Part shown: piece after piece, positions 12,239 through 15,191 of the stretch
Layout of the letters: each line of letters begins with the position of its first letter
Position numbering within the stretch: the first letter of the stretch is position 1
Origin: an uncultured Woeseiaceae bacterium
GTDB taxonomy: Bacteria; Pseudomonadota; Gammaproteobacteria; Steroidobacterales; Woeseiaceae
DNA length: 58,589 bases
Direction: 5' to 3'
NCBI GenBank assembly: GCA_947259285.1
Contig: CAMYMR010000004.1
Span: 56,797 to 115,385 of the forward strand
Made by a program: the position numbers and the translations under genes
Notes under the pieces: model-generated
Database searches by the model: none
Told to the model about the DNA's origin: nothing
Seen by the model: the letters and a program-made list of their open reading frames with translations, nothing else

Positions 12239-13297
12239 ATGAACGTCAAACCGTTATTCAAGTTAATGGTCGAGAAAAACGCGTCCGACCTTTTCTTCGC
12301 ACCATTTACCCCGGCCAAGATCAAGATTGAAGGCAAGATCATGCCGGTTAACAAGCTCGAAATGACGCCCAAGATGGTGAAGCAGGCCGCGCTCGAGCTG
12401 ATGAACGAAGAGCAGCTGGAGCAATTCAACAAGGAGCTGGAGATCGACTTCGCCTTGTCCGAACAAGGCCTTGGCCGGTTTCGTGTCAATGTCTTCCACC
12501 AGCGCGGCAGTGTTTCGATGGTGTTGCGCTACATCACGTCGGACATGCCCACGCTTGATGAACTTGGCATGCCGAAGCAGCTTAAAGAGCTGGTAATGCT
12601 ACGGCGCGGCCTGATCCTGATGTGCGGTTCGACGGGCGCCGGCAAGTCGACGACGCTGGCCGCGATGATCAACCACCGCAATGAAAAGACGTCGTCGCAC
12701 ATCATTACCATCGAGGATCCGATCGAGTTCCTGCACCCGAACAAGCAGTCGATCGTGAATCAACGCGAGATAGGACTGGATACAAAATCTTACGGCCGCG
12801 CGCTCAAGAGCGCTGTCCGTGCTGCGCCTGATGTCATACAGATTGGTGAGATCAGGGACACGGAGTCGATGCGCGCGGCACTGGACATGGCGGGTACCGG
12901 CCATCTCGTGCTGGCGACGGTGCACTCGAATAATTCGGCCGAAACGCTGGATCGAATCATTAATCTGTTCCCCCAGGAGCAGCATGCCCAGGTGTTCATG
13001 GACCTTGCGCACTACCTGCGCGCGATTCTGTCACAACGACTGGTGCGTGCGAGAAACGGCAAACGCGTTGCGGCCGTCGAACTGCTGCTCAATACGCCGC
13101 ATATCAAGGACCTGATCCTGAAGGGCGACATCACGGCGGTTAAGGAAGCTCACCGGGATAGCGGCGAGGCGGGCATGAAGACCTTCGATGACGCGTTGCT
13201 CGAATTGTACAAGGACGGCACGATTACGATGGAAGAGGCAATGTCACACGCCGATTCGCGCGCCAACCTCGAAGCGAAAGTCAACTTCGGCGGCTGA
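12239..13297 (+). CDS. Third PilT/PilU-family ATPase
   Basis: 352 aa and clearly a member of the retraction-ATPase family: NASDLFFAPFTPAKIKIEG, Walker A CGSTGAGKST (about residue 129), the Asp box ITIEDPIEF, Walker B PDVIQIGEIRDTESM and the His box GHLVLATVHSNNSAETLDR. Like PilU it carries NTPHIKDLILKGD in place of AIRNLIRE. It is shorter than PilU because it lacks the long charged tail. It begins 22 bases after pilU, so all three motors are probably one operon. Whether it assists PilT or acts on another pilus is unknown; it could be a recent pilU duplicate that has diverged. Confidence 0.93.
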   Translation: MNVKPLFKLMVEKNASDLFFAPFTPAKIKIEGKIMPVNKLEMTPKMVKQAALELMNEEQLEQFNKELEIDFALSEQGLGRFRVNVFHQRGSVSMVLRYITSDMPTLDELGMPKQLKELVMLRRGLILMCGSTGAGKSTTLAAMINHRNEKTSSHIITIEDPIEFLHPNKQSIVNQREIGLDTKSYGRALKSAVRAAPDVIQIGEIRDTESMRAALDMAGTGHLVLATVHSNNSAETLDRIINLFPQEQHAQVFMDLAHYLRAILSQRLVRARNGKRVAAVELLLNTPHIKDLILKGDITAVKEAHRDSGEAGMKTFDDALLELYKDGTITMEEAMSHADSRANLEAKVNFGG

Positions 13298-13367: not shown

Positions 13368-13421
13368 TTCGTGCCGAAGCGGGTGGTGGGTTATCAAGAA
13401 TGCCCGTAGAATTGCCCCGCC

Positions 13422-13640
13422 ATGAGCGCCATACTAAAACCAGCAAAAGCCGACGATGAGGCCGCCCTGCAGCTCGATGCCAACGGCAATCATCGCTATC
13501 TCCTGACCCTGAAAGACCTCGAATTGCAATGCGCGGTCACAGGCGGCGCGCGTTCGGTCATCACGAAGCAGGTCACCAATGGGGTAGCGGTTCGCATGGC
13601 CGTACTCGACCGCGTCAGCCGAAGCCTGGCCACGCAGTGA
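13422..13640 (+). pseudogene. pyrB: Internally deleted aspartate carbamoyltransferase relic (72 codons)
   Basis: The frame is intact, but only the two ends of PyrB remain. Residues about 16-31 (LQLDANGNHRYLLTLK) match the start of the Pseudomonas-type enzyme, which reads LQL..G..RH.L.L. Residues about 33-66 (for example CAVTGGARSVITKQVTNGVA) match its C-terminal helix, recalled as SAVADGAQSVILNQVTYGIA followed by IRMAVL. The roughly 260 codons between, with the STRTRT carbamoyl-phosphate site, the HPTQ motif and the aspartate loops, are gone. The peptide cannot be a working ATCase. No good ribosome-binding site precedes the ATG. Its TGA overlaps the GTG of the next gene. The position beside ruvX-yqgE is where pyrB is found in Pseudomonas. 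Deletion in the organism or an assembly collapse are both possible. Confidence 0.75.
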
Positions 13641-14533
13641 TCACTGCAGTTCAGCGCAAGGCGCAAGAAAATCGCGGTACGCTTTTTGTCGAGGATGGTG
13701 AGGTGATCGCGACCGAGTCGTTTCCGGGCGAACAATTCGTGATGCGTATTCGTGCGCCGCTGTGCGCCCAGGCCGCCAAACCCGGGAATTTCGTGCACAT
13801 CAGTTGCCACGAATTGCGACCGATGCGCCGCCCCATGTCCATCATGCGAGCCAAAGACGACTGGATTGAGATCCTTTTCAAAATAGTGGGTGACGGTCTT
13901 CACCTGCTGTCGAAAAAGCAGCCCGGGGATTCTGTTAACGTTCTGGGTCCCATTGGCAGGCCGTTCTCTCCGTCGTCTGAGCGCCCCAACATACTGCTGA
14001 TCGGCGGTGGGGTGGGTATTCCGCCGATGGTGTTCGTTGCTGATGATCTGCGTAAGCGCGACGGAAACTGGCGACCGCTCGCGATTCTCGGTTCCGAGAT
14101 TCCGTTTCCTTTTGATCTGGTTACTTCGACAATTGCCACGCCGTGGCTGGATGCGGCTATTGACAAGTCGATGCCGCTACTTGAGAGCTGGGGCATCCCC
14201 ACCCGGCTCGCAACGCTCGCAGGCTTCGAGGGGTGCTACGACGGTTATGTGACCGAGCTTGCCGACCAGCGGTTGTCGGCACTGTCCGCGGCTGAACTGG
14301 CCGGTACCGAGATCTTCGCGTGCGGCCCAACGCCGATGTTGAGGGCAGTTGCGACATTGGCGGCAAACTATGACTTGCCCTGCCAGGTATCTCTCGAAGA
14401 ATACATGGCCTGTGCTGTCGGAGGCTGTGCGGGCTGTACGGTCAAGATACGGACGCCCGACGGACCCGCCATGAAACGCGTGTGCGTCGACGGCCCCGTC
14501 TTCGATGCCACGACGGTCGTCTGGGAGGCCTGA
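13637..14533 (+). CDS. Dihydroorotate dehydrogenase electron-transfer subunit-like protein (PyrK-like)
   Basis: 298 aa ferredoxin-reductase-like flavoprotein. The N-terminal FAD-binding barrel contains AAKPGNFVHISCHELRPMRR. The NAD-binding half has LLIGGGVGIPPMVF and FACGPTPML. The C-terminal cluster CAVGGCAGC plus a further Cys about 16 residues on (KRVCVDGP) fits the [2Fe-2S] site of PyrK. PyrK transfers electrons from the class 1B dihydroorotate dehydrogenase to NAD, but no pyrD lies in the window. The start is taken as GTG 13637, overlapping the pyrB relic stop. The partner enzyme, and therefore the real role, is unknown; other PyrK-like reductases exist. Confidence 0.8.
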   Translation: MITAVQRKAQENRGTLFVEDGEVIATESFPGEQFVMRIRAPLCAQAAKPGNFVHISCHELRPMRRPMSIMRAKDDWIEILFKIVGDGLHLLSKKQPGDSVNVLGPIGRPFSPSSERPNILLIGGGVGIPPMVFVADDLRKRDGNWRPLAILGSEIPFPFDLVTSTIATPWLDAAIDKSMPLLESWGIPTRLATLAGFEGCYDGYVTELADQRLSALSAAELAGTEIFACGPTPMLRAVATLAANYDLPCQVSLEEYMACAVGGCAGCTVKIRTPDGPAMKRVCVDGPVFDATTVVWEA

Positions 14534-14564: not shown

Positions 14565-14703
14565 GGGTCCTGCATTGGGGGAGTTTCACGAGCGTCGTGC
14601 GAAGCGCCGTGACGCAGGATGCCAAAGCAAGCGGAGCCCGAGGCGAGCGAGGCAGGGATGCCGAGCGAGGTTTAGCGAGCGGAACTCCCCCAATGCAGGA
14701 CCC
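14565..14703. repeat. 139-bp element with 21-bp perfect terminal inverted repeats
   Basis: The arms at 14565-14585 and 14683-14703 are exact reverse complements. The 97-base interior is rich in gcgagcg motifs and has no convincing frame. It fills most of the gap between the PyrK-like gene and ruvX, which are convergent. The look is that of a miniature inverted-repeat element or REP-type palindrome; it could also act as a bidirectional terminator. Confidence 0.75.
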
Positions 14704-14747: not shown

Positions 14748-15191
14748 CTACGAGTTCGCCAGGTACCGTTCCGCGATGAGGACCGCCGCGGCGCTGTCGA
14801 TCATCTCCCTGGAAATTCGTCCGCGTGTGCCCGCGGCGCGCGCATCCTTGAGTACGCGCTCGGCTTCGATAGACGTATAGCGCTCGTCGACTGTCTCGAT
14901 CGGTAAGCCGTAGCGAGCGAGCTCGGCAGTAAAGTCCCTGACCAGGTCTTCCATATCGCTGGCCGATCCGTCGGCGTGGAAGGGCATCCCGACAACCAGC
15001 TGGGTCGGCCGCCACTGCCGTATCAGCTCATCCAGCCGCGCGTAGTCCGGTCCTTCCGGCCGGTTTGCGATGATGCCGAGCGGGCTTGCGGAGCCGGTAA
15101 CGTCCTGACCCACCGCCACGCCGATGCGGCGCAGTCCGAAGTCGAGAGAAAGGACGGTCCTCGGTCTCGTCAAGCTAAGCGTGACCCGCAT
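14748..15191 (-). CDS. ruvX: RuvX/YqgF family Holliday-junction resolvase-like protein
   Basis: 147 aa RNase H-like nuclease; the family is tied to 16S rRNA 5'-end processing and to junction resolution. Motifs are LSLDFGLRRIGVAVG (first catalytic Asp), QLVVGMPFHADGS, ETVDERYTSIEAE (catalytic Glu) and DSAAAVLIAERYL (last Asp). ATG 15191 is chosen because it gives the normal length; it overlaps the yqgE stop by 17 bases. The yqgE-ruvX pairing is widespread. The usual pyrR after it is missing here. Confidence 0.93.
   Translation of the reverse strand: MRVTLSLTRPRTVLSLDFGLRRIGVAVGQDVTGSASPLGIIANRPEGPDYARLDELIRQWRPTQLVVGMPFHADGSASDMEDLVRDFTAELARYGLPIETVDERYTSIEAERVLKDARAAGTRGRISREMIDSAAAVLIAERYLANS

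Follow-up and report, generated by a model that had tools for sequence, protein, structure and literature searches.

Why does an open reading frame that joins the two ends of an aspartate carbamoyltransferase (ATCase, PyrB), with its middle gone, still stand directly before a pyrK-like gene? The question is raised by a 58,589-nucleotide stretch of DNA (here called the window) from an uncultured Woeseiaceae bacterium. The window lies in contig C4 of genome G000, a metagenome assembly of 166 contigs that is 84.8% complete.

A relic of pyrB

The frame occupies positions 13422-13640 of the forward strand and encodes 72 amino acids. The original prediction of an in-frame PyrB relic free of stops and frameshifts was borne out: the frame is open from its ATG to its TGA with zero internal stops, and both ends matched PyrBs of the same genus (60 relatives searched), in agreement with a codon comparison. 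In those relatives, residues ~31-72 matched open frames of 328-337 amino acids at 50-65% identity (best E = 3.7e-11), and residues ~10-36 gave a second matching piece in many of the same frames, ~255 residues further upstream. The best match of this N-terminal piece was in G029 (77% identity, E = 1.9e-6). The curated profile NCBIfam NF002032 detected residues 31-65 alone (E = 2.1e-6, 27 bits against a cut-off of 263), so the N-terminal part would escape a search by profile alone. The proposed likeness to PyrB at both ends thus held against the frames of relatives, and by the curated profile for the C-terminal part only.

The N-terminal remnant (13422-13523, + strand) has its start at the pyrB position and comprises codons 1-34 as counted in G066, G009, G083 and G023. 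The C-terminal remnant (13521-13637, + strand), placed by frame matches, profile and codon comparison, equals codons 294-332 of the intact relatives; its C-terminal block SVITxQVTNGVAVRMAVL is partly well kept. A working ATCase, an essential enzyme, has a catalytic chain of ~300 residues with sites for carbamoyl phosphate and aspartate. Lacking codons 34-293 and scoring far under the cut-off, the frame does not encode such an enzyme. Its ends are homologous to PyrB and collinear with it, and it stands in the orthologous place, as befits a relic of the pyrB gene.

The deletion junction and sequence divergence

The junction was defined by codon comparison with the same four relatives, each of which has a PyrB of 332 amino acids. 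Codons 34-293 of 332 are missing, in frame. Since codon 34 at the junction is also codon 294, exactly 260 codons (780 bp) were lost, matching the earlier estimate of about 260. The junction lies at TCGA (13519-13522, + strand). This 4-nt microhomology is present at both edges in G009 and G083, preceded by C on the 5′ side (CTCGA) and by A on the 3′ side (ATCGA).

To either side of the junction, the relic differs from seven clade relatives at positions where these all agree, with 10 private substitutions in total. Each intact relative has 0-3 private changes (seven clade members, 61 aligned end residues), a count that is depressed by changes shared among close relatives; G033 and G066, with 1 and 3 private changes, have terminal branches (0.084 and 0.072) similar to that of G000 (0.089). 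Values of pN against relatives were 0.156-0.193 for the relic and 0.015-0.140 for the intact genes. Relative to PyrK, the pN of the relic (0.97-1.31) fell inside the intact range (0.32-1.76). The dN/dS test proposed earlier, made pairwise, gave values below 1 for the relic ends (0.10-0.18), covered by the spread among intact pairs (0.042-0.240). Some measures, the private changes and pN, thus suggest relaxed constraint on the protein, and others do not. As both ends are still readable, the deletion is likely young relative to the lineage, and in this relative sense the earlier suggestion of a recent deletion can be retained.

Gene order around the locus

Upstream of the relic lies a PilT/PilU-type ATPase gene (12239-13297, + strand), and beyond the pyrK-like gene lies ruvX (14748-15191, - strand), facing it; both names come from reading the sequence. 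A place between the pil ATPases and ruvX-yqgE had been proposed, and these flanks were found. The gene next to the relic, however, is pyrK-like; ruvX and yqgE come after it and are encoded on the other strand. Usually the four genes read yqgE-ruvX-pyrB-pyrK, all in one direction. The window, G009, G023, G066, G083 and G094 instead have pyrB-pyrK inverted, placed after pilU and pointing towards ruvX; in G036 the pair is directly behind pilU and the contig stops before ruvX. Among 40 loci picked from the order and the family, pyrB lies between ruvX and pyrK in 39, the exception being L206. The order yqgE-ruvX-pyrB also occurs in Pseudomonas, and the site may correspond to the pyrB position there, as had been proposed; the difference is that here pyrK follows pyrB and that the pair is inverted in the window clade.

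A flipped pair between pilU and ruvX was seen in L038 (pyrK alone), L051, L052 and the G000 clade. As these carriers are apart on the tree, the pair seems to have been flipped more than once. A perfect 21-nt inverted repeat (14565-14585 and 14683-14703, 97 nt between arms) sits in the pyrK-ruvX gap, near one edge of the flipped segment. G061 has two pyrB-pyrK sets, L047 (G061:C22) and L048 (G061:C47), the second more divergent and with its own yqgE-ruvX.

The pyrK-like gene and its overlapping start

The downstream gene (13637-14533, + strand, 298 amino acids) encodes a PyrK-like FAD/NAD-binding protein of the electron-transfer subunit family of dihydroorotate dehydrogenase. The best PyrK model, NCBIfam NF000799, gave 129 bits (E = 1.2e-37) against a curated cut-off of 314, and none of the curated PyrK models was matched over its cut-off; we therefore call the gene PyrK-like (pyrK below). 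A relative of it was present in 72 of 73 genomes of the genus and in 268 of 296 genomes of the order.

At GTGA (13637-13640, + strand), the relic ends and pyrK begins with GTG, the two frames sharing these 4 nt. The overlap had been noted in the original prediction as a coupled start, and the arrangement is what would be expected of coupled frames, with a stop overlapping the downstream start and a downstream gene that has no strong ribosome-binding site of its own. When the Shine-Dalgarno score was taken as the longest match to the consensus, TAAGGAGGTGA, within -20 to -4, the match before pyrK was 3 nt in the window and at most 4 nt in 45 of 45 loci of the genus. Among 51 intact genomes of the genus, 46 have the same 4-nt overlap when pyrK is taken to start at the in-frame codon closest to the end of pyrB; in the other five, stop and start lie within 4 nt of each other.

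A class 1 PyrD, a possible partner of the PyrK-like protein, was found in G000 on contig C8 (TIGR01037, 327 bits, cut-off 270; NF005574, 364 bits, cut-off 269); we take it to be a class 1B dihydroorotate dehydrogenase. A strong PyrD match of ~250 bits was seen in 11 of 13 genomes searched; in G009 it was in pieces, and in G023 (98% complete) there was no strong match.

Four genomes of the genus without pyrB

Of the genus genomes, 72 have pyrK, and in 68 of them the gene just upstream on the same contig is a pyrB that scores above the family cut-off (match coordinates compared by eye). The genomes with pyrK and no upstream pyrB are G000, G028, G035 and G080. In all four, TAGAAT is present without mismatch and followed 8-9 nt later by an ATG, from which a frame leads into pyrK.

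What follows the ATG differs among them. In G000 it is the remnant of 34 + 38 codons with the GTGA overlap. G035 has an ORF of 63 amino acids whose stop is one base before the ATG of pyrK. The first part of this ORF is identical to the PyrB of its sister G018 at 35 of 56 positions (63%, E = 2e-22, BLASTP), and its last codons match the end of the G018 pyrB at 13 of 15 nt (by eye), so the ORF joins the two ends of the gene in frame. In G028, the frame opens with MNSAD from pyrB (MNSAE in the PyrB of its sister G006) and continues in frame as pyrK; the two genomes are nearly identical in the 50 nt upstream. G080 has an ORF of 46 amino acids whose stop overlaps the TTG of pyrK. It gave no BLASTP alignment with the sister PyrB even at E = 100, and its final stretch matches the sister's pyrB end at 15 of 18 nt (by eye). 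The frames of G035 and G028 are traceable to pyrB, and that of G080 by position only; its presumed descent is read from its place, start, box, stop overlap and final nucleotides. The same fused peptide, which it had been proposed to look for in relatives, is not common to the four genomes, whose products are 72, 63 and 46 amino acids and a 5-codon fusion.

In a tree of neighbouring genes from 45 of the 73 genomes of the genus, each of the pyrB-less genomes groups with intact ones: G028 with G006 (support 1.000), G035 with G018 (0.878), and G080 with G071 (0.867). G000 sits in an otherwise intact clade (1.000). A common origin of the four losses was rejected because intact genomes lie between them in this sample. 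Two or three relatives thus seem to have reached much the same state independently. Among the causes that had been considered for the open frame, the retention of box, start and frame into pyrK in 4 of 4 genomes favours selection for translation into the next gene.

In the family, 97 of 107 genomes scored over the TIGR00670 cut-off. The 10 below it were the four just described, G060, G332, G346, G341, G334 and G354. No pyrK match at 1e-30 was found in G060, G332, G346, G341 or G334 (G354 was outside the pyrK search).

The TAGAAT box before the start

The box, TAGAAT (13407-13412, + strand), ends 9 nt before the ATG of the relic. It resembles a -10 element, and we propose it as the promoter element of a leaderless, or nearly leaderless, mRNA on the basis of its conservation in 45 loci. 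The motif was picked after the sequences had been inspected, and the 45 loci are related; with this in mind, exact TAGAAT was found 8-9 nt before the ATG of pyrB or the relic in 32 of 45 genus loci, against 0.14% of shuffles, and with at most one mismatch in 41 of 45, against 3.5% of shuffles. For two of the four exceptions (G069 and G073), the measurement apparently used a wrong start, as the box can be seen a few bases further along. The Shine-Dalgarno match before the same ATG was at most 3 nt in 41 of 45 loci.

In unflipped genomes such as that of L054, the TAG of the box can be supplied by the ruvX stop codon, and the box may also be conserved on that account. The flipped clade (G000, G009, G023, G036, G066, G083 and G094) has no ruvX upstream of the box, which is still exact there.

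According to the available part of PMC3160421, TA-like boxes before starts are taken as a sign of leaderless genes, a TANNNT box stands ~12 bp from the start in such genes, and leaderless genes are reported in just 15 of 239 gammaproteobacterial genomes. In the window, such a -10-like box is close to the start codon, and by analogy with the reasoning in that part of the source it suggests a leaderless transcript. The first T of the box is 14-15 nt before the start, 2-3 nt more than the spacing given there, so a leader of a few bases is possible. TANNNT at such spacing preceded 1 of 48 large ORFs of the window, not above shuffles.

A second ATCase-like gene

The search for an intact pyrB elsewhere in G000, also proposed earlier, yielded none over the cut-off. 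A gene on contig C101 (ATC2) scored 231.2 bits with the ATCase model, its best of all models, against a cut-off of 236.95; all other models stayed below their own cut-offs. As the score is under the cut-off, we refer to this gene as ATCase-like. G080 has an ATC2 on C5 with 236 bits, just below 236.95. ATC2 was thus present in 2 of 4 pyrB-less and 0 of 68 pyrB-bearing genomes of the genus (P about 0.002 by our own arithmetic), and no match in its score range was found in other genomes of the genus or family.

Contamination was considered for C101 and rejected: the oadA-like neighbour of ATC2 is 91% identical to that of G094 and 84-89% identical to those of seven other genus members. The contig thus fits the genus, though such a close copy occurs in just these 8 of the other 72 genomes. 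A gene on contig C39 of G000 was likewise rejected as a native PyrB, as it scores best as an ornithine/YgeW-type enzyme and is below all cut-offs. This carbamoyltransferase gene (L025, G000:C39:10000-24000) has neighbours that we take to encode xanthine dehydrogenase, an ammonia-lyase and carbamate kinase.

Relatives of ATC2 were found in other gammaproteobacterial assemblies and beyond (best 80 of 519 matches). In their tree, G080 groups with L096 (support 0.985) and G000 with L076 (only 0.182), and G000 and G080 are not sisters. Separate gains of ATC2 are weakly compatible with this tree.

In G028 and G035, there was no ATCase-range match; such matches as they have score only like the C39 gene or like ornithine-type genes. 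Both have pyrC-type and pyrE matches. These genomes are incomplete (84% and 83%), so an ATCase may sit in the missing part, or they may require uracil. G080, which is 96% complete and has ATC2, showed no convincing TIGR00857-type dihydroorotase (best E = 1.3e-9), unlike eight other genomes searched.

pyrK outside the genus

Of 43 ATC2-bearing genomes searched outside the family, 37 have pyrK, and 30 pyrK loci were examined. There was no pyrB beside pyrK in these 30 loci by tblastn, a search that also misses the remnants of G080 and G028 and that very short remnants would escape. The ruvX stop could be placed relative to pyrK in 23 loci: 8 had a gap within 4 nt, 13 had one of 10-81 nt and 1 had one of 843 nt, and in the remaining locus the two genes overlapped by 20 nt. 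Given pyrK without pyrB at such varied gaps, pyrK can dispense with a leader of this kind. Coupling to a pyrB remnant is therefore at most a stage, with no permanent need for it. In L162, L164 and L167, also outside the family, ATC2 adjoins pyrK in divergent orientation.

Five genomes of the family (G192, G204, G276, G298 and G339) have PyrB over the cut-off and no pyrK match at 1e-30. Together with the PyrD results for G023 and G009, they indicate that the need for PyrK is not general.

Proposed mechanism and alternatives

We consider it fairly probable, on a sample of four fresh pyrB losses, that the dead pyrB has been kept as a translational-coupling leader for pyrK. From the sequence, the frame, the conserved box and the separateness of the losses, we infer a leaderless start, coupling, selection and displacement, which would act together as follows. 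Transcription directed by TAGAAT would begin on the ATG or no more than a few bases from it. Ribosomes would initiate on the relic, translate its 72 codons, terminate at the TGA and reinitiate at the GTG that overlaps it; pyrK has no clear Shine-Dalgarno site. PyrK is presumed to be useful as the electron-transfer partner of the dihydroorotate dehydrogenase encoded elsewhere, and if so, pyrB losses that break the path into pyrK would be selected against. ATC2 on C101 presumably took over aspartate carbamoylation, making pyrB dispensable. The relic peptide itself probably does nothing.

The relic could instead be neutral: a redundant pyrB lost its middle by chance, in frame, at a microhomology, and the remnant has merely not been erased yet. 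The 4 nt shared at the junction and the readable ends fit such an event, and a dN/dS no different from that of intact pairs is expected if the deletion is young. The other pyrB-less genomes are harder to accommodate. All four that have pyrK keep box, start and frame while being separate on the tree, no frameshifted or start-less remnant was found among them, and the chance of the frame alone would be 1/27 for the three traceable cases (1/81 for four, by our own arithmetic). We regard neutral loss as possible and clearly the less probable account. A peptide with a function of its own, such as a small regulatory protein made of two PyrB ends, would account for the open frame and good start, the well-kept part of the SVITxQVTNGVAVRMAVL block and a dN/dS below 1. 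We find it improbable, as the four genomes share no peptide and residues invariant in relatives are changed in the relic. Least probable of all is an artefact of assembly or binning in which a full pyrB was collapsed. Collapse had been listed as a possible cause in the original prediction, and the fragmentary, incomplete state of the assembly would allow it. It is opposed by the 10 private substitutions found to either side of the junction, where relatives have 0-3 (with G033 and G066 on branches of similar length), by only 4 nt being common to the junction edges, by comparable states in other genomes and by the presence of another ATCase-like gene, next to an oadA-like gene 91% identical to its counterpart in G094.

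If retention as a coupling leader is the right explanation, it may extend beyond this genus. When an operon loses a first gene with a leaderless start, a short in-frame remnant would be left behind, repeatedly and convergently, and selection would keep it only for delivering ribosomes to the next gene. Dead enzyme genes would then give rise to cis-acting relics as a predictable class, one overlooked because annotation throws them out as pseudogene scraps. We are evenly divided on this generalization. Separate losses of the same upstream gene that leave start and frame in place are natural experiments on translational coupling, and suggest that the survival of a deletion in a redundant gene can depend on its polar effect on a neighbour. 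They also indicate how short ORFs that deliver ribosomes might originate, and carry a warning for annotation: some pseudogene scraps and small hypothetical proteins may be cis-acting elements. No description of this locus, or of a leader arising by decay of an enzyme gene, was found in the literature searched, whose coverage leaves out most subscription journals.

Comparison with known systems

The TAGAAT before the ATG, and a Shine-Dalgarno match of at most 3 nt in 41 of 45 loci, are shared with the leaderless TANNNT genes described in the available part of PMC3160421. The differences are the position of the first T, at 14-15 nt and not ~12, and the lack of enrichment of such boxes in the window.

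Other gene pairs with such overlaps have served for tests of termination-reinitiation, which an early stop in the upstream gene abolishes (PMC6728339, in the part available). With those pairs (PMC6728339 and, as far as its accessible text goes, the review PMC12548453), the locus shares the 4-nt overlap, the unidirectional arrangement and the absence of a clear downstream Shine-Dalgarno site. It differs in that its upstream ORF is the remnant of a dead enzyme and not a working gene, and in that coupling is here deduced from the arrangement. The same text of PMC12548453 reports a proposal that some short ORFs merely deliver ribosomes. Such ORFs and the relic have in common a short frame directly before a gene and a peptide that is apparently unimportant. 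Here, in contrast to the ORFs in that text, the origin is traceable: an internal deletion of pyrB in G000 and G035, a fusion in G028, and position only in G080.
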